Source: Cyanobacteria bacterium DS2.3.42 (GTDB lineage: Bacteria; Cyanobacteriota; Vampirovibrionia; Obscuribacterales; Obscuribacteraceae). From it: a stretch of 39,381 nucleotides of DNA. The translations under genes were made by a program, and so were the position numbers. The stretch is from contig PNLN01000130.1 in the NCBI GenBank assembly GCA_013823055.1, forward strand, positions 1 through 39,381, read 5' to 3'. Shown here piece by piece: positions 16,923 to 31,487 of the stretch (within the stretch, counting starts at the first letter, position 1; each line of letters starts with the position of its first letter). The notes beneath the pieces were generated by a model. It was not told the DNA's origin. It did not search any database and worked only from the letters and a program-made list of their open reading frames with translations.

Positions 16923-17029
16923 AACTCAGCCCTGGCAATTGGCGTACAACCTGATTACCGGTCGCACAAACAAAGCAGCTCGCGGCATTGCGGGTATAAA
17001 GTGTCGGGGAATTGGGTTTTGAAAAACCA

Positions 17030-19369
17030 GTGGATCAAGACAACACTCTCAATTCGAAATTGAGTATTGCTAATGAAGCCTGTTTGCAATGTCCGAAATG
17101 CAAGGCTCTCTTTGCGCGCAATGTCGCATATTGCACATCCGACGGAACCAAGCTCGAAGACGCGGATTCCAGCCAAACCACTGCGTCCGTCTTTGCAGGC
17201 AAGTACGAAATTCTCAACGAAATCGGTAGTGGTGGCATGGGCACGGTTTATCGTGTTCGCCAAATTCTGCTGGACAAGATTTGCGCCTTAAAAGTTATTC
17301 CGGCTGAGTCGTTGACAGACCTTTTGATTACTCGCTTTCAGAGAGAAGCAAAGACAATGGCTACTCTCGATCATCCCAATCTTGGGCGAATTCTCGACTT
17401 CGGAATTTACCAGAATTCACCTTACATGGTGATGGAGTACGTCGACGGAAAACCGCTCAACAAGCTCATTCTAGAAACAGAATTGAGCATCGAGGAAGTG
17501 ATCGGAATTTTTTCACAGGTGCTTGATGGACTTGCGCATGCGCACAAGAAAGGGGTTTTGCACAGAGATATAAAACCGAGCAATATCATGATCGTGCCAT
17601 CCTCGCCAGACCAGCAAACAAAAGCATCTTGCAATCATCGAGCGATTCTCCTCGATTTCGGCATCGCCAAGAAAATCGAACCCAGTGACGATACTGGTGT
17701 AGATAATTTCAAAACTCAGGGACTAACGCGCACCGGTGAAATGATCGGCAGCCCGCTGTATATGAGTCCCGAACAAGCGCATGGAGAGAAGCTTACCGAG
17801 CGCTCGGATCTTTACAGCGTCGGGTGCGCGCTGTTCGAATGCCTTGCCGGCACAGCGCCCTTTGTCGGTAAATCGACCGTGGACACTTTGATTTTGCACA
17901 TGGAAAAACCAGTGCCAACATTGAAAGAAGCATCACTTGGGCGAGAGTTTCCAGGCGGTCTGGAAAGAGCAATAAAAAAAATGCTTTCAAAAAATCCATC
18001 CGACCGCTACCAAACTGCCGACGAGACCAAACGCGCTCTGGCACTGGCCATCCAGCTTGAAGACAAACAAGCAGACATTAAAGCGCCCGACAAATCCGAC
18101 AAAATCATTTCGCGCACGACAATTATTCTGGTCTGTCTGGCAGTTTTGATCTCGGTTTCGGTCATCGCTTCCATAACGATACAAGGTGAGAAATTCGCAC
18201 GAGACAGCAAGCCGATTCTCAAAGAAGACAAGATCGAGATAGAGAAAACCTGGCTCACAGTCGCGGATAAAGCTATTTATGACGGCAAACAAGAAGCTGA
18301 CACTAACATAAACAGCGATGAAGACGAACCAGAAAAACGAATCAATCTCAAAGAACCAGCAGCAAAAGAAACACAATACGTTCCATTGACTGGAAACGAA
18401 GAAACGCTGGCACTGCGGGGACAAATTCTCGAAATTAAGCGAGTCAGGTTGATTCAACAAGATCGCCGTCTGCAGAGGCTGGGTTTGGCCCAAGCTCACT
18501 TCCCCCATAGCATGCTCGGCAATCTGCAAGGTTCTCTCAAGGTCCTTCGCCTTAGCGATGCAAACATCACCGACGACGACATGAAATATGTTGGAGAACT
18601 TCGCACCCTGGAGCGACTGCACTTGAATGCAAATCCTATTACCAGCAGCGGCTTAAAGCATGTCGAGTCATTGCGCTCTCTTCACTTCCTTGACCTCGGA
18701 GGCACCAAATGTGATGCCTCGGGATTGTCCTCATTGCGCTATTTGTCACAATTAAGGAATCTCTCGCTAAACAACAATAGATTTATCGACGACAAGGCTG
18801 TCGAGCTGGTTTCTACCATGAACGGCCTGGAAGAATTAAATCTGACTCGAACCAAAGTCACAGGCAAGGGAATCGCTTATTTAAGCCGCATGGACAGGCT
18901 AAGCAAGCTCCATTTAGGAAGTCTGCGATTGCGCGACAAAGACATAATCACGATCAAAAATCTTCCCAGTCTGTCTGTGTTGTATCTTGGTCGCAACAGC
19001 ATTAGCCCCAAAGGCTTGAAACACCTCACGTCACTGAAATTAAGCAGTCTGAACTTAGACTACAACCCAATTGATGACACTGCCATTGACACCATTTTGC
19101 AAATGCGGAATTTACGACATCTCAGTTTGTCATCCACAAAAATGACTAAGAATGGACTGAAAAAACTGACTGCATTGCCAGCATTGCGGGTTCTTATCGT
19201 GAGACAGATAGACGGTCTGGAAGAAGGATTTGCACACGATTTCTTGACCGAATGCAAAAATTGCCAGGAAGTGGTTTTCCTCAGAGAGAGAGGCTCCGGT
19301 TATCGGCGCTCCGAGTGGCAGCTGGACGAACGAACTAAGAAAAATAGCAACAATGATAGCGTCAAATAA
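17030..19369 (+). CDS. Ser/Thr protein kinase with zinc ribbon, TM helix and LRR sensor (paralogue 1)
   Basis: A 779-residue receptor-like kinase. A short zinc ribbon (C21PKC24...YC35TSDGTKL) comes first, then a complete Hanks-type kinase (about 59-335): GSGGMG glycine loop, K88 in CALKV, E106, HRDIKPSN with D180, DFG at 209-211, SPEQ and YSVGCALFE. A transmembrane helix (about 363-384) is followed by an extracytoplasmic region ending in about ten leucine-rich repeats (about 490-740, pattern L..L.L....I...gl..L). The expected topology is kinase inside and LRR outside. GTG 17030 is chosen because VDQDN aligns with MEQDH at the start of the tandem paralogue; TTG 17012 is the alternative. The ligand is unknown. 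Confidence 0.92.
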   Translation: MDQDNTLNSKLSIANEACLQCPKCKALFARNVAYCTSDGTKLEDADSSQTTASVFAGKYEILNEIGSGGMGTVYRVRQILLDKICALKVIPAESLTDLLITRFQREAKTMATLDHPNLGRILDFGIYQNSPYMVMEYVDGKPLNKLILETELSIEEVIGIFSQVLDGLAHAHKKGVLHRDIKPSNIMIVPSSPDQQTKASCNHRAILLDFGIAKKIEPSDDTGVDNFKTQGLTRTGEMIGSPLYMSPEQAHGEKLTERSDLYSVGCALFECLAGTAPFVGKSTVDTLILHMEKPVPTLKEASLGREFPGGLERAIKKMLSKNPSDRYQTADETKRALALAIQLEDKQADIKAPDKSDKIISRTTIILVCLAVLISVSVIASITIQGEKFARDSKPILKEDKIEIEKTWLTVADKAIYDGKQEADTNINSDEDEPEKRINLKEPAAKETQYVPLTGNEETLALRGQILEIKRVRLIQQDRRLQRLGLAQAHFPHSMLGNLQGSLKVLRLSDANITDDDMKYVGELRTLERLHLNANPITSSGLKHVESLRSLHFLDLGGTKCDASGLSSLRYLSQLRNLSLNNNRFIDDKAVELVSTMNGLEELNLTRTKVTGKGIAYLSRMDRLSKLHLGSLRLRDKDIITIKNLPSLSVLYLGRNSISPKGLKHLTSLKLSSLNLDYNPIDDTAIDTILQMRNLRHLSLSSTKMTKNGLKKLTALPALRVLIVRQIDGLEEGFAHDFLTECKNCQEVVFLRERGSGYRRSEWQLDERTKKNSNNDSVK

Positions 19370-19425
19370 TTATCCTGGTGAAGCTCATAGCTGGGTATAA
19401 GAAACGCAGAGATATGGGATGAACG

Positions 19426-21633
19426 ATGGAGCAGGACCACACACAGCACCTGCAAAAGGATCTTCACGAGACGTCGCTGCGCAAGTGTCCTCAATGTGAC
19501 ACTATATTCAGCGCCATCGCCTATTGCCCAAATGACGGCACAAAGCTCGAAGATCATGATGGAGACGGCATCTCCCATCGACTATTTGCAGAAAAATACG
19601 AAATTCTGGAAGAGATTGGCAAAGGAGGTATGGGCACGGTTTTTCGTGTCAAACAAGTCTTGCTCGACAAAATTCTAGCTCTCAAAGTCATCCCCTCGCA
19701 CTATGTAAACGAGCAACTGTCCGTGCGTTTTCAGCGAGAAGCAAAGACCATGGCCTCGCTGGACCACCCCAATCTAGCCCGCATCTCCGACTTCGGGATA
19801 TGGCTTAATCAGCCATTTATGGTCATGGAGTATGTGAACGGGCCGCCTCTTTCCAAATTGATTTCCGAGCGCGTCATTCCTCCAGAGCAAGCTGTAGAGC
19901 TATTTTGCCAGGTTTTAAACGGTCTAGAGCACGCTCACGAAAAAGGGGTTTTGCACAGAGACATCAAACCAAGCAATATCATGGTGCTCAATGAAGACGG
20001 TCAAAACAAAGCCATCTTGCTCGACTTCGGCATCGCAAAGAAAATAGAAACTGATGACGGCATAGCCAATACGCAGGCCTTGACTCGCACAGGCGAAATG
20101 ATCGGAAGCCCGCTATACATGAGCCCCGAGCAAGCGCGCGGGGACAAACTGACGGAAAGGTCGGATCTCTACAGCCTTGGGTGCGCACTATTTGAAAGTC
20201 TGACGGGAACGCCTCCTTTTGTTGGAAAAACTGCCGTAGAAACCTTCTTCCTGCACATGGAGCAAAACCCGCCGTCACTCAAGGAAGCGGCATTAGGGCG
20301 AGAGTTTGCTCCCGGGTTGGAAAAACTGATCAGGAAATTACTCGCCAAAAATCCTGACGATAGATTCGCCTCCGCACAAGAATTAAAACAGGCTCTCTCG
20401 CTGTGTTTGCATCAAGAACAATCGGAAATGCCGGTCGAGACGATCAAGAAAAAAGCACTGCCCGTTCTGCCTTTCATCCTGGTCGCAATCGGCTCAATAG
20501 TCATTCTTTCCGCAGTGGCGTTTGTTGTGCAGCAGGGAGAAAAAACAGCCGCCGAAAACGCCAAAAAGCTGAAGGTGACTGATGATGAATTGATCACCAC
20601 TTTACCTAAAACATTTCCAAAGGAATTAGTCAACGAAGAGGATCAGATTGCCGCGCATCGCGAAAACGAAAATGTCGGCATGGTCATAAAGGACACAGAC
20701 CCAGAACAATCGTTCTACAAGCGGGTTCTCGATGAGAGTACCATCGCAGCGCTGACCGGCAGCAAACATCTGAGAAAGCTCACACTCAACCATTCGAAAT
20801 TTCCGAAATCAATGCTTGCCAAATTGCCACCCACATTGCAAGAGCTGCAACTCAATGGTGGCGGCATACTCAACGACGATTTCAAATTCATCGCTACAAA
20901 CGCAAACTTAAAATCGCTGGCGATCCGATTCAATATCGTCAACTCCAAAGCCCTGCAGAACCTCACCGGTCTCAAGAACCTGGAGATGCTGACACTCAAC
21001 GACACGCATGTGGAGCCCGAGGCGCTGCGAGAGTTGAAGCCAATCAAAAGTCTGCGCATTCTCATCCTTTCCGACAATGAAACAATTGACGACAACGCAA
21101 TGCGCATCGTGTCCGAATTGAAACAGTTGGAAGTGCTGGACATCAGTGGCAATCGGGTGACAGCAAAAGGAATTCCCGAGTTGACAAAAATGCCCAGTCT
21201 AAAAAAGCTGATTGCAAAAAAGCTCATGTTGCATGATAAAGATATGACAGCGTTCAAGAATTTCAAAACCCTTACAGGACTTACTCTGGCAGGCAACAGG
21301 ATAACGGCTGACGGCTTCAAGATGCTTCCTGTATGGAAAGGCATGCGGGACTTTGATTTGAGCGAGTGCGAACTGAATGACGAAGTCATTCCCCACCTGC
21401 TGCGATACAAAGATTTGAACATTCTTCACGTGTCAAGAACCGGCATTACACCTGATGGTTTGTTGAGTTTGGCAAAACTTCCTTTGACTGGAATATGGTG
21501 CAAACGCATAGGTCTGAGTTATGAAGATGGTCTGGAGTTTCTCCGGCGCTGCCCGACCTGCCAGGCTGTTTATTACACTCACAGCGATGACGAACGCATC
21601 GTGCGTTCAGACCTGCAAAAAAAACAAAACTAA
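19426..21633 (+). CDS. Ser/Thr protein kinase with zinc ribbon, TM helix and LRR sensor (paralogue 2)
   Basis: A 735-residue tandem paralogue of the preceding gene with the same order of parts: zinc ribbon C21PQC24...YC34PNDGTKL, kinase (about 58-325) with GKGGMG, K87, HRDIKPSN (D179) and DFG (200-202), TM helix (about 346-369) and LRR region (about 450-700). The kinase halves are nearly colinear, while the outer LRR halves differ much more. That pattern fits duplication followed by change of recognition. ATG 19426 follows the upstream stop by 56 bases. Its stop overlaps the stop of the minus-strand gene downstream by 4 bases (CTAA). Confidence 0.93.
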   Translation: MEQDHTQHLQKDLHETSLRKCPQCDTIFSAIAYCPNDGTKLEDHDGDGISHRLFAEKYEILEEIGKGGMGTVFRVKQVLLDKILALKVIPSHYVNEQLSVRFQREAKTMASLDHPNLARISDFGIWLNQPFMVMEYVNGPPLSKLISERVIPPEQAVELFCQVLNGLEHAHEKGVLHRDIKPSNIMVLNEDGQNKAILLDFGIAKKIETDDGIANTQALTRTGEMIGSPLYMSPEQARGDKLTERSDLYSLGCALFESLTGTPPFVGKTAVETFFLHMEQNPPSLKEAALGREFAPGLEKLIRKLLAKNPDDRFASAQELKQALSLCLHQEQSEMPVETIKKKALPVLPFILVAIGSIVILSAVAFVVQQGEKTAAENAKKLKVTDDELITTLPKTFPKELVNEEDQIAAHRENENVGMVIKDTDPEQSFYKRVLDESTIAALTGSKHLRKLTLNHSKFPKSMLAKLPPTLQELQLNGGGILNDDFKFIATNANLKSLAIRFNIVNSKALQNLTGLKNLEMLTLNDTHVEPEALRELKPIKSLRILILSDNETIDDNAMRIVSELKQLEVLDISGNRVTAKGIPELTKMPSLKKLIAKKLMLHDKDMTAFKNFKTLTGLTLAGNRITADGFKMLPVWKGMRDFDLSECELNDEVIPHLLRYKDLNILHVSRTGITPDGLLSLAKLPLTGIWCKRIGLSYEDGLEFLRRCPTCQAVYYTHSDDERIVRSDLQKKQN

Positions 21634-22946
21634 CTTGCTTCAGAAGCCTCGGCAATGTTTGAGCGCTTCCACTGGCGGACCACATAAATGGTCCCTGAAA
21701 CCGCCAGAATCAGGTTTTGCGCAAGCACTGGATAGGTTCTGATTGCACTGCCGAAAATGGACAGATTGAAACTTATGAAACTGACGAGTGGGTAGAGAAG
21801 CAGCGTCATGCACCAGATTCGGTAGGCCATATCTTTTTCTTTGAACACCACCGACGGACTTACCGAAGGTATCGTCAAAATGGCTGCTACTGCCAACATC
21901 AAGCAATCATGAATGTGAACATGAGGACCAAAGAATAGTGACAGTACAAGAGTAACTGCCATCACCCACCCAAAAAGTTCTGGCTTGTTAGATGACTTGA
22001 TCCACAACCACAACGAAGCAGCCAGCCCGAGCAAAAGGCTGATGGTTCCAAAGGCTACGACTACATTACTGGTCGGCAGATGAAGCAAGTCGTACATAAC
22101 AAGTGCGCGCAAATTAACCTGATCGGCAGGTGAGATGCCCGTGTAATTTGCCGATGTATAGACCTCGGACAGGTAGTGCACGTAATCAGGCAGTATGTGA
22201 ACGCCGAATCGCATCACCGTCGCCGACACAACGATCGCAGCAAGAGGAACCGCACTGGCAAGCACTTTCCAGCGGCGCATGGTGAACACTGGAATGGCAA
22301 GGAAAATTGCATAGTGCGGTTTGACCACACCCAGCAATCCCAGGCACAGCCCAGCCAAAATACTTCTCTTTTGCAGAAACGACCAGCAATAAAGGGAGAC
22401 TAGAGCAAGTGCAACAAATGAGAACTGACCGGCACGTATTGCTAAAAGTGCAGGTGTATTTGAGATGATCGCAACCAAAATTGCAGCTCGATCGATCTTG
22501 CTGAAACGCTCTTGTGCAAACAATAAAACCGACGTCACTAGCAAGCCAATAGGAACCGAAATGAATTTCCAAAATACGTATGCATCTGTGAGCGACAGCA
22601 TGGATAGCGGCGCCGCCAGGAAGTAGAAGGTGGGCGGGTACGGAATCGCCCAGGCAATATCGCTGTGCGCCGGTGCGATGATTTGATTGAGGGCGGCTAG
22701 CTGCGTGTTGAAATCATAAAGATTGGCGCCAGCAGCACCCAATTTCGCCGCTTCATAGTAGCCAACAAAATCGGCCAGCTGGATCGACCCTTTACCCGGC
22801 ATAACCAGATCCGGATTAGTGGTCGCAAAAAAGAATAGAACATTGGCAGCCCAAGCCAGAACCATCGAAAAGTAAGCAAACTGGACTTTGGATGGACGAA
22901 ATTCAGTTTTTCCATCGGGCGGCTGGTTGGTGGTTTCGGATTGCAT
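21630..22946 (-). CDS. GT87-type (DUF2029) polyprenyl-phosphate sugar transferase, membrane
   Basis: A 438-residue protein with about ten to twelve transmembrane helices. Features of the GT87/GT-C class are seen: LADFVGYYEAAKLGAAGANLYDF in the first outside loop, with D and paired aromatic residues, then AWAIPYPPTFYFLAAPLS and LGVVKPHYAIFL. Such enzymes transfer mannose or related sugars from polyprenyl phosphate to envelope glycans outside the membrane. Acceptor and sugar are unknown. It is divergent from the epimerase operon, suggesting a shared glycan pathway. No strong Shine-Dalgarno sequence precedes ATG 22946. Confidence 0.8.
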   Translation of the reverse strand: MQSETTNQPPDGKTEFRPSKVQFAYFSMVLAWAANVLFFFATTNPDLVMPGKGSIQLADFVGYYEAAKLGAAGANLYDFNTQLAALNQIIAPAHSDIAWAIPYPPTFYFLAAPLSMLSLTDAYVFWKFISVPIGLLVTSVLLFAQERFSKIDRAAILVAIISNTPALLAIRAGQFSFVALALVSLYCWSFLQKRSILAGLCLGLLGVVKPHYAIFLAIPVFTMRRWKVLASAVPLAAIVVSATVMRFGVHILPDYVHYLSEVYTSANYTGISPADQVNLRALVMYDLLHLPTSNVVVAFGTISLLLGLAASLWLWIKSSNKPELFGWVMAVTLVLSLFFGPHVHIHDCLMLAVAAILTIPSVSPSVVFKEKDMAYRIWCMTLLLYPLVSFISFNLSIFGSAIRTYPVLAQNLILAVSGTIYVVRQWKRSNIAEASEAS

Positions 22947-23144: not shown

Positions 23145-23240
23145 AAGGACCTCAACAAGAGCTCTGAATATGGCTTATAAAAAGCAACTCAATTTGCCTG
23201 GGTGGTCCGTTTATCACGACGAGGAGCGTTGTTCGGCGCT

Positions 23241-24164
23241 ATGACACAACGCGTACTGGTCACAGGAGGAGCCGGTTTTATCGGCAGCCATCAAGTCGAA
23301 GCCTTGCTTGCGCGTGGCTATGAAGTCTGCGTGCTCGATAGTTTAACCATGGGAAAACGCGCCTGGGTGAGCCCAGATGTAGAGTTTTTTGAAGGTGACA
23401 TTCGCGATCTGGAGGCCTGCAGAAAGGCGATTCAGCGCTGCACCGGACTGTTTCACCTGGCAGCCATGAGCCGCTCGGCAGCCTCACTTGACAATGTAGA
23501 CATTTGCACCAGCAACAACATTATCGGAACTCAAAACATCCTTACCGCAGCTCGTGAGGTGGGTGTGCGCAAGGTTGTCTATGCCGGATCGTCCACTTAC
23601 TATGGCAATCAAAAACCTCCGCATGCAGAAAACATGCAGCCTGACTTCCTCAATTTCTACGGGCTCTCGAAGTATGTCGGCGAAGAATATTGCCGTTTGT
23701 TCGACAAGACGTACAACCTGCCTGCCAATGTCATGCGCTACTTCAACGTCTACGGTCCAAGACTTTCTGGTGAAGGCGCATACGCGCTTGTCATGTCCAT
23801 CTTCCTCAGACAAATTCGCGAGGGCAAACCTCTTACCATTCACGGAGACGGGCTGCAAAGCCGGGACTTCGTGCATGTTCGCGACGTTGCCAGAGCAAAT
23901 ATTCTCGCCTTCGAATCGCAATTGCATGGTCGAACATACAATGTCGGCAGTGGCGTTGCAGTAAGCGTGAAAGAGCTGGCCAATAAAATGTCGCTCAATC
24001 AAATTCACGAAGACAGGCGCGCCGGCGATGCTGAAATTACTCTGGCAGACATTTCGAGAATCAAGGAAGAACTCGGCTGGAGTCCTGAAATTTCCTTCGA
24101 TGAAGGAATGAAAGAGCTTTTGAAAGAACTAGAAAGCGAACAAGCGAAAGCGGGGGCCGTCTAA
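23241..24164 (+). CDS. NAD-dependent sugar-nucleotide epimerase/dehydratase
   Basis: A 307-residue extended SDR. GGAGFIG (9-15) binds NAD, HLAAMSRS follows the usual HLAA strand, and the catalytic Y140xxxK144 (YGLSK) with S117-S118-T119 is complete. FNVYGPR and SRDFVHVRDVA are typical of UDP-glucose 4-epimerase-like enzymes. It would act on a nucleotide sugar made in the cytoplasm. The start is ATG 23241; a longer frame to 23202 adds an unrelated basic stretch. It is the first gene of a compact operon whose next start is 2 bases after its stop. Confidence 0.9.
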   Translation: MTQRVLVTGGAGFIGSHQVEALLARGYEVCVLDSLTMGKRAWVSPDVEFFEGDIRDLEACRKAIQRCTGLFHLAAMSRSAASLDNVDICTSNNIIGTQNILTAAREVGVRKVVYAGSSTYYGNQKPPHAENMQPDFLNFYGLSKYVGEEYCRLFDKTYNLPANVMRYFNVYGPRLSGEGAYALVMSIFLRQIREGKPLTIHGDGLQSRDFVHVRDVARANILAFESQLHGRTYNVGSGVAVSVKELANKMSLNQIHEDRRAGDAEITLADISRIKEELGWSPEISFDEGMKELLKELESEQAKAGAV

Positions 24165-24165
24165 G

Positions 24166-24936
24166 ATGCAAGCGCCCGAGAAAACCAAGACTCTGGGCAG
24201 AGTGACGTCTCTCTCGATTGCTGCGCCGGCCTACAACGAGGGCGAATCGATAGCGTCCGTTGTGAGCACCTGGAGTGAGTATTTAAGCAAAATGGAAGGA
24301 CTGAAAGACTTCGAGATTGTCGTCTGCAACGACGGCAGCAAAGACGATACAGCTGCCATTTTGAACGAACTGAGTGAAAAGGATCCGCACATCAAACCGC
24401 TCAGTTTTTCCGTCAACCAGGGGGCTGCCGCGGCACTCTCGCATGCTATTCACAACACGCGCCATCCCTGGGTACTACTCCTAGATTCCGATGGACAGTA
24501 CGGAATAGATAACATAGTAAAGCTCATTGCAGAGGTGGAAACGCATGCTGAAACCAAAGCCGTGATTGGCGTGCGCGTGCACAAACACGACAGCGCTTTC
24601 ACTCAATTCGGCTCTGCAGCTAGTGGTTGGCTGTGCAATCTATTTCACGACACTAACTATCGTGACTTCAATTGCGCATTGAAGCTCGTGGAAGGCGAAA
24701 CTTTACGTTCACTCAACCTGGAAGCAAAAGGGCTCAACTATTCCGGAGAAGTATCGTCAAAGCTGATAGAGAGAGGCATTGTGTTCCGCGAAGTTGAAGT
24801 CGAGCATAAGAAACGCATCGCCGGCCGCAGTTCATCTCAAAACCTGAAAGCTGCATGGCATCGACTTCTCTTTGTTATGTACTTGGGCTTCCGCCAATTC
24901 CTTCTGCACCAAAAAGTTTTGCAGGTGCGCAAGTAA
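24166..24936 (+). CDS. Family 2 glycosyltransferase
   Basis: A 256-residue GT-A enzyme. SIAAPAYNEGESIASVV (17-33) is the donor-binding start, VVCNDGSKDDT (48-58) follows, and LLLDSDGQY (102-110) holds the DxD metal site. This resembles dolichyl/undecaprenyl-phosphate glycosyltransferases, but it has no C-terminal membrane helices beyond a short hydrophobic patch (LLFVMYLGFRQFLL). It would transfer a sugar from a nucleotide donor. Its last base is the first base of the next ATG (TAATG), so translation is probably coupled. Its DGQY motif recurs in the next protein's C-terminal domain. Confidence 0.9.
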   Translation: MQAPEKTKTLGRVTSLSIAAPAYNEGESIASVVSTWSEYLSKMEGLKDFEIVVCNDGSKDDTAAILNELSEKDPHIKPLSFSVNQGAAAALSHAIHNTRHPWVLLLDSDGQYGIDNIVKLIAEVETHAETKAVIGVRVHKHDSAFTQFGSAASGWLCNLFHDTNYRDFNCALKLVEGETLRSLNLEAKGLNYSGEVSSKLIERGIVFREVEVEHKKRIAGRSSSQNLKAAWHRLLFVMYLGFRQFLLHQKVLQVRK

Positions 24937-26978
24937 TGTCAATGAAAGCCCCTACCAATCCAAGTTCTTTGCTTGCGGCTATCGCAGCAATGATGCAGAC
25001 GCATCCGCGCAATGGCAAAGAAGCGAACAGCGACGGTTACATCAAAGTATCCTTGTTCTGCGGGGGTCGCGGCAGCGCCAGTCTCATTCAGGAATTCACA
25101 AACAGCCAGAAGGTGAACTTATCGCTGCTCGTCAACGGTTATGACGACGGGCTTTCGACGGGCGAATTACGCGATCTCGTGCCCAACATGCTCGGACCAT
25201 CCGACTTCCGAAAAAATCTTTCACGCTTGCTGGACCTGCATTCCAACGAGCAGTACATGCTGCAACAACTACTCGAGTATCGCTTTCCAAAAGACTTTTC
25301 AGCCGTCGACATTCGTGCATTTGAAGAATATGTGGACAATCCTGACGCACAGCATTGGCTGCCGTCGCCGCTGGATACGATGTTTGGCGAACTGCAATTG
25401 AGCGCTCGCAAGGCGGTTTTGAAACGCATAAAACGGTTTCTAGCCTATAAACGCGAGCACGAGCAGTCATTGAACTATTCCGATTGCTCTCTGGGAAACC
25501 TCGTGTTTGCAGGCGCTTATCTGGAATCAGACAACTTCAATGCATCGGTGCGCAACCTGGCTTCTGAATTTGGATCGTTTTCAGAATTGATCAACGTCAC
25601 TAAGGGCGAAAACCGCATCCTGGTTGCGTTGAAAACAGACGGTGAGCTGCTCAGTCGCGAGTCTGAAATCGTAGGACCGCAAAGCAGAAATCCGATAGCA
25701 AAACTTTTTCTTCTCGACAAAGGACTGGACGAAAACGACAAAAAAGCGCTTGCTGAGATGAGTTTCGACCACAAGGTCGAATATCTTTCCGCAAGAAATT
25801 GCGAAGTAACCATCTCACCGGACGCCGACCTGGCCCTGAGAAACTCCGACATAATCATCTTTGGACCAGGCACTCAACACTCATCGCTGCTTCCTAGCTA
25901 CTTTACGAAAGGCCTGGCTGAAGCCATTCAAGAAAGCACAGCATCGACAAAAGTCTTTGTCGCCAACCTTGACGAAGACCAGGATATCCAGGGCTTGACC
26001 GTATCCGACTTGATCGACAAAGCACTGGAGCTAATGGGCGATCCGGAAGGAACGAAAGGGCTCATCAACTACGTGCTGTGTGACAGTGCCGGAGCCTCAC
26101 GCAAGGCTGGAATACTGCCTGGCAAAGCCACCGGAGAGACATACAAAGGCGCGCAAATCATCAACGGAACATTTGAAAGCTCGACCAAACCAGGCACTCA
26201 CAACGGTTATAGCGTCGTGCGCAAAGTTCTTGAGCTATACGAACTGGACAAAAACAAATCCACCAATTTAAGTTCGCTCGAAATATACATTGACCTGCGC
26301 AATCGCAGCCAGGCTTTAGAAGCCGTTCTTCAAGAATTCGCCGATTTACCCTGGACTGAACATTTCAACAGCATCGAGTTGCGCGTCAATAGACTGCCGG
26401 ATAAAGACGCCAAACTGCCCTCTTATGCATCAATTACAAGATCCGAATACAAAGGCTCCTTCACCGAGGTCGACGCGCTGCTCAATTGGCTTGCCCACAG
26501 TAATTCCGAATACCTCGTCACATTGACGGGAGACGGACAGTACAGATTGGCGGACATTTTGATTGGTGTTCAAGTTTTAAAACTCGGCTCCTTCGGCGTA
26601 TTGTACGGCTCACGCACCCAAAGCCGGCGTCAATTCAATTCATCACTGGACTCCGCCTACGAGCATTGGCTCCTTCGCTCAATCGGCTGGAGCGGCGCAT
26701 TCATCTTCTCGGGGCTCTTCAGCTTGATGTCGCGGCACATTTTTTCGGATCCATTTACCGGATTTCGCATATACAGACGCAGCAAGTTCGACGAAAAGTT
26801 TATCGAGGCGCTGAGAAAACGCGGATATGTGCCACCATCTACAGTGACAAGACTGATGCTCAAACACAGAATAGAGATCGCCGAAATTCCTGTAAAATAC
26901 CGCACATTTCGCGGTTTCACCCGACCAGGATGGCGCATCTGGCGAGGACTGCGCAACCTTCTTGGTATTATTCACTAA
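24936..26978 (+). CDS. Fusion: CofD/YvcK-like domain plus GT2-like domain
   Basis: A 680-residue two-domain protein. Residues about 36-440 resemble the CofD/YvcK fold: SLFCGGRGSASLI (39-51, in place of GGTGxxxLL), VNGYDDGLSTGELR (66-79, matching the DDGGSSGRLR loop), LGPSDFRKNLSRLL (86-99), CSLGNLVFAGAYLE (184-197) and IIIFGPGTQHSSLLPS (307-321). CofD makes the phosphodiester of coenzyme F420; YvcK binds nucleotide sugars. Residues about 448-680 resemble a GT2 domain: TLTGDGQYRLADI (529-541) replaces the DxD region, then VLYGSR and DPFTGFRIYRR. ATG 24936 overlaps the previous stop by one base. The frame is open from 24855, but that part lies inside the upstream gene. The fold assignment comes from motifs only; the joint activity is unknown. 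Confidence 0.75.
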   Translation: MSMKAPTNPSSLLAAIAAMMQTHPRNGKEANSDGYIKVSLFCGGRGSASLIQEFTNSQKVNLSLLVNGYDDGLSTGELRDLVPNMLGPSDFRKNLSRLLDLHSNEQYMLQQLLEYRFPKDFSAVDIRAFEEYVDNPDAQHWLPSPLDTMFGELQLSARKAVLKRIKRFLAYKREHEQSLNYSDCSLGNLVFAGAYLESDNFNASVRNLASEFGSFSELINVTKGENRILVALKTDGELLSRESEIVGPQSRNPIAKLFLLDKGLDENDKKALAEMSFDHKVEYLSARNCEVTISPDADLALRNSDIIIFGPGTQHSSLLPSYFTKGLAEAIQESTASTKVFVANLDEDQDIQGLTVSDLIDKALELMGDPEGTKGLINYVLCDSAGASRKAGILPGKATGETYKGAQIINGTFESSTKPGTHNGYSVVRKVLELYELDKNKSTNLSSLEIYIDLRNRSQALEAVLQEFADLPWTEHFNSIELRVNRLPDKDAKLPSYASITRSEYKGSFTEVDALLNWLAHSNSEYLVTLTGDGQYRLADILIGVQVLKLGSFGVLYGSRTQSRRQFNSSLDSAYEHWLLRSIGWSGAFIFSGLFSLMSRHIFSDPFTGFRIYRRSKFDEKFIEALRKRGYVPPSTVTRLMLKHRIEIAEIPVKYRTFRGFTRPGWRIWRGLRNLLGIIH

Positions 26979-27029: not shown

Positions 27030-27707
27030 ATGCCAGACCAAAATCGCAATCACCAAACGCTTTTGCAGACGGTGACCTGCTTCCTCTTTGACCTGGATGG
27101 AACGCTTATAGACAGCAGCCCTTGCCATGAGCGCGCCTTCTTCAAAACGCTTGAAGCCAACCAGCAACACCTGGTGAAATCTTTCGTTTACGAAGAGCAC
27201 AAAGGCAAAAGCACGAAAGAAACGTTTCAAGACCTCGGCGTAGATGATTCTAGGCTGTTGAAACTAATGACAGAAAACAAACAGAGCCTCTATCGGCAAA
27301 TGGTCGAAGACGGCGAGGTGGTAGCCTTTCCGTTCGCAGAACAGCTGCTCAATGTCCTGCGAAGCAAGGGGCACCGCGCCTGGGTTGTCACAGGAGCAAG
27401 CCGGCGCTCCGCGGAGGCTGCTCTTTCGCGACTTGGACTAATCAGTTATTTTGAAGCACTTGTCACCGGTGACGAGGCACCGAGAACCAAGCCAGCACCG
27501 GATCTGTATCTAAAATGCTTGTCTGACCATTCGATATCACCTCAAAGTGCGCTTGCCCTGGAAGATGCATTGCCCGGTATACAATCTGCAAAGGCAGCCG
27601 GCTTGAACGTAGTCGCCGTCAATAATCCCGAGCTTTCTCATTTGTCCGAATACGTAGGAACATTGAAAGAGTGGCACGACAATTGGCTTATGGGGCAAAA
27701 TGATTAA
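27030..27707 (+). CDS. HAD-family phosphatase/phosphomutase, beta-PGM-like
   Basis: A 225-residue HAD enzyme with all four motifs: FDLDGTLIDSS (nucleophile Asp and second Asp), VVTGAS (Thr), KPAPDLY (Lys) and LEDALPGIQSAKAAG (acidic pair). A helical cap (about 35-100) is typical of the beta-phosphoglucomutase and phosphoglycolate phosphatase subgroup. In this operon it could dephosphorylate or isomerise a sugar phosphate before activation, as GmhB does in heptose synthesis. It lies 51 bases after the fusion gene. Its end overlaps the start of the nucleotidyltransferase by 8 bases. Confidence 0.9.
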   Translation: MPDQNRNHQTLLQTVTCFLFDLDGTLIDSSPCHERAFFKTLEANQQHLVKSFVYEEHKGKSTKETFQDLGVDDSRLLKLMTENKQSLYRQMVEDGEVVAFPFAEQLLNVLRSKGHRAWVVTGASRRSAEAALSRLGLISYFEALVTGDEAPRTKPAPDLYLKCLSDHSISPQSALALEDALPGIQSAKAAGLNVVAVNNPELSHLSEYVGTLKEWHDNWLMGQND

Positions 27708-28464
27708 AATCTGCGCCGTCATCCCTGCAGCCGGAAGAGGCAGTCGCCTCGGGTTGGACTGCCCGAAGATTCTGGTTCCGATAGAGAAGAACCTCACTGT
27801 CTGGGACGTTTTACGCAATTCAATGAGTCCTGTTTGCGAACGTATTCACGTGGTCCTTGCACCATCTGCAATGGCACAATTCGAAGCTGTATTGAGTTCA
27901 GAAACCGACCGCGCAAAACTCAGCGTCAGCGAACAGACCACGCCTCGAGGCATGGGCGACGCCATTTTCGGCGCCGAGCCTTACTGGAATGCATTTGATT
28001 CAATCTTGATTGTCTGGGGGGACCAGGTAAATCTCTCTGCTTCGACACTGAAAATGGTCGCAGCGCAATGCAGCGCAAACAAAACCATGGTGCTGCCGCT
28101 TGTCGAATGCCAAACTCCATACGTCCAATATGACCTCGTGGATGGCGTGTTGACCCACGTCAGACAAAGCCGCGAAGGCGATGCAATGGACCCTGTGGGT
28201 TTCAGCGATGTTGGTGTATTTGCACTTTCGGTACCCGGGCTTCTCGAGTGCTGGAAGCAATTCGTGGAAGAAAGTGTCGTCGGTGCTCAAACCAATGAAC
28301 TCAATTTCTTGCCCTTTTTGCCGTTTCTATCACAGCACTGCAAATGGAATTTGCGCACAGTCATTGTTTCAGATCCCGTCGAAGCGCTAGGCATCAACAC
28401 TCCGGAAGACCTGCAAATTACTAGAGAGCGCTTCGCTCGCCTGAAACAGCGCTCGAAACACTAA
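27700..28464 (+). CDS. Sugar-phosphate nucleotidyltransferase
   Basis: A 254-residue GT-A-like nucleotidyltransferase. PAAGRGSRLGLDCPKILVPI (9-28) is the signature of sugar-1-phosphate nucleotidyltransferases (GlmU, RmlA and IspD relatives). VWGDQVNL occupies the place of the metal-binding GD, and VEALGINTPEDLQ near the end matches the GlmU-type VxGVNT. It would join a sugar phosphate or similar compound to a nucleotide, releasing pyrophosphate. It overlaps the HAD gene by 8 bases and is the last gene of the operon. Its stop codon lies in the first of two 20-base direct repeats. Confidence 0.88.
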   Translation: MIKICAVIPAAGRGSRLGLDCPKILVPIEKNLTVWDVLRNSMSPVCERIHVVLAPSAMAQFEAVLSSETDRAKLSVSEQTTPRGMGDAIFGAEPYWNAFDSILIVWGDQVNLSASTLKMVAAQCSANKTMVLPLVECQTPYVQYDLVDGVLTHVRQSREGDAMDPVGFSDVGVFALSVPGLLECWKQFVEESVVGAQTNELNFLPFLPFLSQHCKWNLRTVIVSDPVEALGINTPEDLQITRERFARLKQRSKH

Positions 28465-29521: not shown

Positions 29522-31072
29522 ATGCATCAACTCAATCCAGTCATGTCTACAGTCGGTCCTTTGGTTGCAAATGCCGCGATTGCAGCGAATACCGCGATTC
29601 CCTGGGTCAATCCGAATGAGCCCATGTACAGGCATATCTTTCGTCTCCTGCGCATTGAAATAGAGCGCGGAAGATTCAAGGCCGGCGATAAACTTCCGTC
29701 TGTTCGCACTATGGTGACCGACTTCAAGGTCTCGCATCCGACCGTCCTGAGGGCTCTAGAAGAGCTAGCTTCTATCGGCTATGTGAAACTCGTGCAGGGC
29801 AGTGGCTCCTACGTAACAAGACGAGCCACGGAAGGCCAAATTTTGCCTCTAAGGGACGGCATTCAGCAAATGTTCCAGAACAACGCTGCAAACTCGCCCG
29901 ATGTTCAAGTGGTAGACGACAACCATCTCGTGAGACATAGTGAGCCCAGCAAAACGGGCGATGCTTCAACCAAAAACCCGTGCAAAAATTCGACCAGCAC
30001 GGATAAGGAAACAGGCAGCAACGATTCGAATTTGCCTAAAGGAAGTTGGCAGCGATCCGTTCGAACAGCACTGCTGGAATGCTCAACCGCCGAAGATGCT
30101 TCAATCACTCCAGCAGGACTGGCGATGCTGCGCTCTTCAATCGCAAGCTACGTCCGGCGCTCGCGCGGCATCTGCGCAGACCCTGCTCAAGTAGTAGTCA
30201 CCTCCGGCGTTTCATCTGCTATCGCACTGGTGAGCACATTGTGCAAACTCGCAGAGCAGACAGTAGGGGTCGAGAATCCTGGCTCGCCAAAGATCAGAAG
30301 GCTGCTCACGGCTCACGGAGCCGTCTTGAAACCGATTGAACTGGACAATCAGGGTATGTCGGTTGAGGCATTGAAAGAGCTCGAATGCAAAATCAGACTT
30401 TTGCATGTGACACCGAATCACAACCCGACTGGATTGGTGATGAGCGAAAGACGACGACAGAGCCTGCTCAATTGGGTATCCTCCCAGCAAGCGGTGATTC
30501 TGGAGGATGATTTTGGCTGTGAATTTGCTCTTTCGATGAACCGCGAGACGTCGCTTTTTGCCTTAGGGCAGAACAATGTTGTCTATCTTGGTGGATTTTG
30601 GGGCTCTCTCTATCCGCTTGTGCACACAGCTTTTCTTGTATTGCCGCCATCATTGACTGAAACGGCGATCAAGTCATCGATACTGCGCGACAATGAGCAC
30701 AATCTCCTGGAGCAGCACGCGTTGCGGCATATGCTTAATGACGGGCATTTGGAATTGCATCTAAAACGGCAGAAAAAAGTGATTATGGAAAAACGTGCCT
30801 GCGCAATGGCAGCGCTTAAACAGACTCTAGGAGCCCGTATCGACTTCATTGGCAAGAGCATCAATGGAAAACAGCTGATCAGGTTTCACGAAGATGTTGA
30901 AGCAAGAAAGGTCATAACGGCTGCGCTTCGTTCGGGATTGCCACTTACAAGCACGACAGACTTTTTCATTTCAAACCATCGCCCCAACGACTTCTTGCTG
31001 TCTTATGCTGGGATGGAATCAAAGCAAATCTTCAACACCGCGCTGCATTTTGCCGGACTACTCGGCTGGTAG
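29522..31072 (+). CDS. MocR-type GntR regulator with degenerate aminotransferase domain
   Basis: A 516-residue protein. Residues 35-100 are a GntR winged helix (FRLLRIEIERGRFKAGDKLPSVR...SHPTVLRALEELASIGYV). A low-complexity linker follows (about 105-175), then a fold-type I aminotransferase domain (about 176-516) with TPNHNPTG and LEDDFGCEF. In MocR proteins the PLP lysine sits in a YLGTFSKTLxPxxRxGY motif. Here the same place reads YLGGFWGSLYPLVHTAF: S-K has become W360-G361 and the phosphate-binding Arg has become H368. The Tyr of EDDY is F331. PLP is therefore unlikely to be held as a Schiff base. No PLP-pathway gene is adjacent. Confidence 0.88.
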   Translation: MHQLNPVMSTVGPLVANAAIAANTAIPWVNPNEPMYRHIFRLLRIEIERGRFKAGDKLPSVRTMVTDFKVSHPTVLRALEELASIGYVKLVQGSGSYVTRRATEGQILPLRDGIQQMFQNNAANSPDVQVVDDNHLVRHSEPSKTGDASTKNPCKNSTSTDKETGSNDSNLPKGSWQRSVRTALLECSTAEDASITPAGLAMLRSSIASYVRRSRGICADPAQVVVTSGVSSAIALVSTLCKLAEQTVGVENPGSPKIRRLLTAHGAVLKPIELDNQGMSVEALKELECKIRLLHVTPNHNPTGLVMSERRRQSLLNWVSSQQAVILEDDFGCEFALSMNRETSLFALGQNNVVYLGGFWGSLYPLVHTAFLVLPPSLTETAIKSSILRDNEHNLLEQHALRHMLNDGHLELHLKRQKKVIMEKRACAMAALKQTLGARIDFIGKSINGKQLIRFHEDVEARKVITAALRSGLPLTSTTDFFISNHRPNDFLLSYAGMESKQIFNTALHFAGLLGW

Positions 31073-31100
31073 TACGGATATTTCGAGCTGTTCAACAAAG

Positions 31101-31487
31101 AGTGAAGTAACGCGTAAGCCGGGTTCTGTGTTCGACTGTCATCTCTCTGGGAGTGTGGTCTCCCACACCCTCTAGCGGCATCGGCAACTTGAGGTGACGG
31201 GCCGCCACTTTCTCAAGCTATACCTTCGCCTTGCACCTTCAGCGGGGTTTACCTAGCCAAGGCCTCTCGACCTTGCTGGTGCGCTCTTACCGCACCGTTG
31301 CACCCTTACCAGTTATCAGCGACCATCACTTTCGCTCAGATCGCTCACGGACTGGCGGTTATCATTTCTGTGGCACTATCCTCACGCTCACGCGCACTGG
31401 GCGTTACCCAGCAACCAGCCCTGCGGTGCCCGGACTTTCCTCACTCGACCGATTGCTCGGCAAAGCGCGACAGTCTGCGCTACTTCA
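31101..31487 (-). ncRNA. rnpB: RNase P RNA, bacterial type A
   Basis: On the minus strand the universal 5' block GAGGAAAGTCCGGGC (about 31443-31429), the GGTAAGGGTGCAACGGTGCG and GTAAGAGCGCACC region, GGTAAACCCC, and the 3' ACAGAACCCGGCTTA (near 31130-31115) appear in the right order and spacing. Helix P1 is closed by GAAGTAGCGC (31486-31477) pairing with GCGTTACTTC (31113-31104), with one G-U pair; this sets both ends to within a few bases and gives about 387 nt. The RNA is the catalytic part of RNase P, which trims tRNA 5' ends. It converges on the MocR-like gene and has a TATAAT box upstream. Confidence 0.97.

Follow-up and report, generated by a model that had tools for sequence, protein, structure and literature searches.

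A CofD-like domain joined to a diverged GT2-type domain in a five-gene sugar cassette of Obscuribacterales

A 680-amino acid protein, in which a CofD-like domain is joined to what profile comparisons identify as a strongly diverged GT2-type (GT-A) glycosyltransferase domain, is encoded at positions 24936–26978 (plus strand) of the window, i.e. the whole stretch of 39,381 nucleotides that was analysed. The window belongs to an uncultured bacterium of the order Obscuribacterales, which is related to cyanobacteria but does not photosynthesize. The gene is a single intact open reading frame (ORF), and its ATG overlaps the TAA of the preceding GT2 gene (TAATG). Full-length fusions were found in two more assemblies (92 and 76% identical), and two additional copies are interrupted by contig ends. 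The recurrence of the same fusion in further assemblies rules out an assembly artefact. The CofD-GT fusion, which the initial annotation had proposed from the letters of the DNA, is therefore real, being borne out by the ORF, the profile matches, and the orthologues. The domain boundaries proposed there were also about right: the CofD-superfamily domain covers residues ∼37–434 (25044–26237, plus strand; PF01933, NCBIfam, and PDB YvcK chains) and the GT2-type domain residues 446–680 (26271–26975, plus strand; NCBIfam, hhalign, HMM, and controls). No published description of a CofD-GT fusion was found in the literature searched. We tentatively regard the protein as a two-domain enzyme of a dedicated glycan cassette, which would carry out a CofD-type transfer of sugar phosphate to an acceptor at the GT-like half.

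Strong purifying selection acts on both halves (dN/dS of ∼0.025). Between two carriers, the Nei-Gojobori method gave 0.027 (CofD half) and 0.025 (GT half), values that indicate the order of magnitude only as synonymous sites are near saturation. AlphaFold runs with the whole protein (three sequences) and with the C-terminal half (five sequences) yielded models of no confidence (pLDDT 33).

The cassette and its distribution

The fusion gene lies in a cassette with the order SDR, GT2, fusion, HAD, and nucleotidyltransferase, and this order is the same wherever the contigs of relatives suffice. All genes are on the plus strand. The SDR gene (23241–24164; the ORF opens at 23202, and 23241 is the likely start) encodes an NAD-dependent sugar epimerase/dehydratase (Pfam Epimerase, 3.4e-63), and its position is conserved. 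The likewise conserved GT2 gene (24166–24936; Glycos_transf_2, 8.2e-24) encodes a glycosyltransferase with canonical PAYNE, NDGS, and DSDGQY motifs. Downstream of the fusion gene are genes for a β-phosphoglucomutase-like HAD hydrolase (27030–27707; HAD_2, 7e-31; TIGR02009) and for a nucleotidyltransferase resembling MobA and the N-terminus of GlmU (27700–28464; NTP_transf_3, 7.7e-10). These Pfam matches support the sugar-gene surroundings described in the initial annotation. A divergently oriented neighbour (21630–22946, minus strand) encodes a GT87 membrane glycosyltransferase (Pfam GT87, 8.9e-19); a GT87 gene adjoins the cassette in three genomes (the window and loci L095 and L096), and in one of these loci an MBOAT gene then follows.

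Several other features of the region were recorded. Positions 17012–21633 contain two tandem genes, likewise in tandem in L095, for Ser/Thr protein kinases that have leucine-rich repeats at the C-terminus and a zinc-ribbon-like stretch at the N-terminus. Downstream of the cassette, positions 29522–31072 encode a GntR/MocR-like regulator with an aminotransferase domain, also present in L095, and positions 31100–31486 (minus strand) encode the RNase P class A RNA (Rfam RF00010, 247 bits).

A genome survey, as the initial annotation had suggested, found the fusion in 5 of the 53 genomes of the order, with the same cassette neighbours where contigs reach, and every carrier belongs to one genus (eight genomes). 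The nucleotidyltransferase gene occurs in exactly the same five carriers and in none of the 48 others, and the cassette GT2 gene is present in the three carriers whose contigs extend that far. The fusion was found in none of the other genomes sampled from the class and the phylum. A scan of genome contigs, restricted to patterns of close relatives, returned two loci, one from Candidatus Melainabacteria and one from a Candidatus Obscuribacterales MAG. The plasmids searched contained stand-alone CofD-like proteins and no fusion, and neither the fusion nor the cassette GT2 had relatives in the viral contigs. Scans with GT2s from gut phages were uninformative, and a DPTSGFR pattern matched mostly unrelated proteins. 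The survey of the fusion covered Cyanobacteriota, plasmids, and phages, and the apparent rarity of the fusion applies to these collections. As the genome containing the window is 64% complete, absences from this genome alone carry little weight.

A separate, deep branch of CofD-like proteins

Judging from profile matches, the first half of the protein belongs to the CofD superfamily. Residues 40–385 match Pfam CofD (PF01933) with 97.6 bits against a gathering cut-off of 30 (9.9e-28). The top NCBIfam model is that of the GAK-system CofD-like protein (TIGR04357; residues 38–431; 1.3e-24; 87 bits, cut-off 340), and the YvcK model (TIGR01826) follows with 2e-23 and 83 bits against a curated cut-off of 196. 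All PDB matches of this half are YvcK-type proteins (2ppv and others), with an E-value of 5.7e-13 for the sequence alone and 3.9e-45 with the family profile. In a phylogenetic tree of YvcK, GAK, and related proteins, in which no F420 CofD was included, the fusions and a plasmid protein of Acaryochloris were grouped with full support (100/100), apart from YvcK and GAK. These two types of protein thus appear to represent a third, deep CofD-like branch, although the Acaryochloris branch is very long and its exact placement unsure. The CofD/YvcK fold noted in the initial annotation is accordingly upheld at the level of the superfamily by the Pfam, NCBIfam, and PDB matches, but CofD or YvcK proper is not, the protein falling in a separate deep branch.

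The closest relative from outside the order in the collections searched is the Acaryochloris protein (WP_261892555.1, encoded by plasmid pREC4 of Acaryochloris marina; 2e-15). It shares 33% identity across the domain and the LGPSD-RKN, STG, and PGTQ-SSL-P-Y-T motifs with the fusion, but it is a stand-alone protein of 365 residues without adjacent sugar genes. In pREC4 (L107, 14995–17186), this gene is convergent with a gene for a CAP12/Pycsar TIR effector domain, with a gap of 20 bases.

YvcK/GlmR proteins (TIGR01826; PDB 2ppv, 2hzb, and 2o2z) are the nearest solved structures to the CofD half and share the superfamily, the order of motifs, and the reported active-site aspartate pair with it. 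Ten YvcK proteins from the order were aligned with the fusion, in which the GG-G, DDG-S-G-LR, D-R, S-GN, and GPG--SS--P motifs are all kept. On the other hand, the identity is 20–30%, a GT domain is attached, an insertion of ∼60 residues (119–181; 25290–25478, plus strand) lies between the YRF and SLGN motifs, and a second insertion is found around residues 262–285. The fusion reads GPGTQ-SSLLPS where YvcK/GlmR has GPGSLYTSIIPN. The four other carrier genomes also contain a normal, separate YvcK. Assignment as a canonical YvcK was rejected on the basis of this separate copy, the score below the cut-off, and the failure to keep Y265 and R301 (see below).

The chance gain of a GT domain by a GAK-system CofD-like protein or by an F420 phospholactate transferase is a very improbable origin of the protein. 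TIGR04357 is the top NCBIfam model over the full CofD domain, and GAK proteins have a comparable extra length between motifs; however, the score is far below the cut-off, the fusion lies outside the GAK branch of the tree, and no protein scored above the cut-off for the GAK ATP-grasp partner (TIGR04356) in any of the 53 genomes of the order. An origin in the GAK system was rejected on these grounds. With CofD/FbiA (PF01933, TIGR01819), the fusion shares the Pfam family, probably the aspartates, and a link to a nucleotidyltransferase, which is functional in the case of CofD and CofC. In contrast to CofD/FbiA, it resides in a genus without F420 genes, and the nucleotidyltransferase of its cassette is GlmU/MobA-like and showed no match to CofC. 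The F420 CofD equivalog model (TIGR01819) gave no match to the fusion at an E-value of 1, and the F420 ligase CofE (PF01996) was found in none of the eight genomes of the genus, including the 64% complete genome of the window. A role in F420 synthesis was rejected by these two results, which extend the earlier observation that no other F420 gene is present in the window. Proteins of the PF01996 family were found in four other genomes of the order (G300, G310, G321, and G340).

A 653-amino acid frame in the Cyanobacteriota genome G010 was considered as a second fusion and rejected, as it represents RapZ-YvcK without a GT domain. The locus (L093, G010:C133; 7371–9296, minus strand) encodes a single protein of 641 residues, in which a RapZ/YvcJ-like part is joined to YvcK. 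An interaction between YvcJ and GlmR has been described in B. subtilis (PMC7525490), so that this protein is a natural fusion of two partners.

Functional residues of the two halves

In the CofD half, D70–D71 (25143–25148, plus strand; YDDG, canonically DDGG) align with the catalytic D40–D41 of Listeria GlmR, and D90 in LGPSDFRKN (25203–25205, plus strand) is invariant across all CofD-like branches aligned. D70, G72, R79, D90, and R92 are invariant in the fusion, Acaryochloris, GAK, and rhizobial proteins aligned. In FbiA, the metal is held by Asp45 and Asp57 (PMC7253369), to which D70/D71 and D90 of the fusion would be equivalent.

GlmR of Listeria, S. aureus, and B. subtilis produces UDP-GlcNAc from UTP and GlcNAc-1-P (PMC10128056), and the conservation of the GlmR aspartate pair would fit a CofD half that acts as an accessory uridyltransferase, making a nucleotide sugar and passing it to the fused GT half. 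We consider this improbable, because N198 in the active site of GlmR, which belongs to a triple mutant abolishing activity (PMC10128056), is replaced by S321, and because a separate nucleotidyltransferase is already encoded in the cassette and accompanies the fusion in every carrier.

YvcK binds UDP-sugars (PMC5482804), and GlmR with UDP-GlcNAc offers a model for a sensing CofD half. A possible, if doubtful, explanation places catalysis in the GT half, which would be a polyprenyl-phosphate or glycan hexosyltransferase controlled or fed by the CofD half as a YvcK/GlmR-like nucleotide-sugar binder or sensor. The relevant YvcK residues were placed via the alignment with 2hzb, in which T13, N217, Y264, and R300 agree exactly with the published numbering (PMC5482804). 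In the numbering of B. subtilis, only N218 is kept in the fusion (N344); T14 is replaced by R45, the R301 position is occupied by T421, and no counterpart of Y265 was found by alignment. This speaks against the explanation, Y265 and R301 being the residues most needed for the binding of UDP-sugars by YvcK.

Residues ∼446–680 appear to form a strongly diverged GT2-type (GT-A) domain, although Pfam gave no match in this half even at an E-value of 10. The best NCBIfam models, both in register, were AglJ (0.0011) and PpgS (0.005), which represent polyprenyl-phosphate sugar enzymes. In hhalign comparisons, the GT half matched a set of five GT2 proteins (A5) with a probability of 97.5 (E-value, 6e-12), and the controls scored 0.24 (SDR) and 0.07 (NTP-transferase), both <1%. 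Because these proteins had been found using the query itself, the test was repeated with an unselected set, i.e. proteins of the same genome picked by PF00535 alone, and a probability of 89–90 (E-value, 2e-6) was obtained. An HMM of ten short unselected GT2s scored 20–21 bits on the GT half, while the highest score among 3000 shuffled sequences was 10.0. Another HMM, for which GT2s resembling the C-terminal half had been chosen, scored 42 bits and was discarded as circular. The initial annotation had named the absence of a GT-A match in profile comparison as grounds for giving up the GT assignment; the hhalign matches to GT2 (probability, 89–97) uphold it.

Like GT2 polyprenyl-phosphate hexosyltransferases (AglJ, PpgS, and DPMS-like), the GT half contains the DGQ, GSR, D-P-TG-R, and EIPV patterns. 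It differs from them in the lack of PAYNE and DDGS, which in the orthologues are replaced by DLRNR and NRLP (this stretch is outside the confident hhalign region, which starts near residue 495), in the lack of a Pfam match, and in the DxD motif, which reads TGD. The second half is thus GT2-type according to hhalign, the HMM, and NCBIfam, but not an ordinary GT2. In TGDGQY (D533-G534-Q535; 26532–26540, plus strand), the first Asp of DxD is replaced by T531, and the second Asp (D533) and the following Gln are kept. D533 and Q535 correspond to the metal ligands Asp91 and Gln93 of PfDPMS, in which Asp89, the counterpart of T531, is a sugar contact and no metal ligand (PMC5526996). D533, Q535, R560 (Arg117 of PfDPMS, the GSR arginine), and DPFTGFR are invariant across the five fusion sequences, and the A-loop pattern R/G/T/R (656–663) is also kept. 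The loss of PAYNE and DDGS and the retention of these residues suggest that the acceptor-side half of the GT-A domain is preserved and that the nucleotide-side half is not. With several metal and acceptor residues present, and with the lost first Asp being no metal ligand in PfDPMS, the GT half may be an active glycosyltransferase, the CofD half then being accessory, as the binder or sensor explanation supposes. Opposed to this is the disappearance of the nucleotide-binding motifs from the GT half in all orthologues.

A possible role in sugar-phosphate transfer

CofD transfers X-phosphate from an X-P-P-nucleoside to an alcohol. In CofD/FbiA, the transfer from the diphosphonucleoside donor is direct and depends on a divalent metal (PMC7253369). 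As the cassette appears to make a nucleotide sugar, the transfer of a sugar-1-phosphate would be the direct analogue of the CofD reaction. In the leading model, the nucleotidyltransferase, aided by the HAD enzyme, would produce a nucleotide-diphosphate sugar, which the SDR enzyme would remodel and the CofD-like half would consume in the manner of CofD with LPPG. With a metal at the conserved D70/D71 and D90, the sugar phosphate would be transferred to a hydroxyl group of the acceptor with release of NMP, and the product would be a phosphodiester-linked sugar. The GT-like half, with its nucleotide pocket lost and the second half of the GT-A domain kept, would either hold the acceptor, for which a glycan or a polyprenyl-linked sugar is a candidate, or perform a coupled glycosyl transfer. 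We infer the donor, the acceptor, the reaction, and the identity of the catalytic half. The transfer of a nucleotide-activated phospho-group to a glycan, as suggested in the initial annotation, is chemically consistent with CofD.

This sugar-phosphate transfer model is favoured by the CofD superfamily match with D70/D71 and D90 kept, by the metal-dependent diphosphonucleoside chemistry of CofD/FbiA, and by the fixed link to the nucleotidyltransferase (5/5 carriers; 0/48 others), which follows the pairing logic of CofC and CofD. The GT half, in which the nucleotide pocket is eroded but D533, Q535, R560, and DPFTGFR are invariant, the dN/dS of ∼0.025 in both halves, and the adjoining GT87 gene point in the same direction. 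Against the model, GlmR N198 is S321 in the fusion, and YvcK-like proteins may be UDP-sugar binders or regulators and not transferases.

An independent parallel from the literature supports a CofD-like role in polysaccharide synthesis and thereby the sugar-phosphate transfer model. In a glucofuranan-producing strain of Mycoplasma fermentans, a region for which an origin in Clostridia has been proposed contains a broken CofD-family gene together with genes for a polysaccharide synthase and for an NDP nucleotidyltransferase (PMC11658790). As in the cassette, a CofD-family gene lies beside genes for a GT2 synthase and a nucleotidyltransferase; unlike the fusion, it is broken and not described as fused, and the two are likened by description alone. 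More broadly, the third CofD branch might consist of nucleotide-sugar-dependent sugar-1-phosphate transferases for phosphodiester-linked glycans, with the fused GT-A domain turned into an acceptor holder in this genus, a proposal that we regard as rather unlikely at present.

Apart from the F420 CofD, CofD-like proteins occur widely, and there is no agreement on their chemistry, the proteins having been viewed as UDP-sugar binders, regulators of GlmS, or uridyltransferases. A CofD-like domain fused to a GT-type domain, with a nucleotidyltransferase of its own, serves as a Rosetta-stone clue by which some members of the superfamily may act directly in glycan assembly, and the cassette provides a defined five-gene system for testing such a role. 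If true, a direct role of CofD-like proteins in glycans would explain the presence of a CofD-family gene in the polysaccharide-synthase region of Mycoplasma fermentans, and the use of CofD chemistry, which until now has been seen in F420 synthesis, would be extended to phosphodiester-linked glycans.
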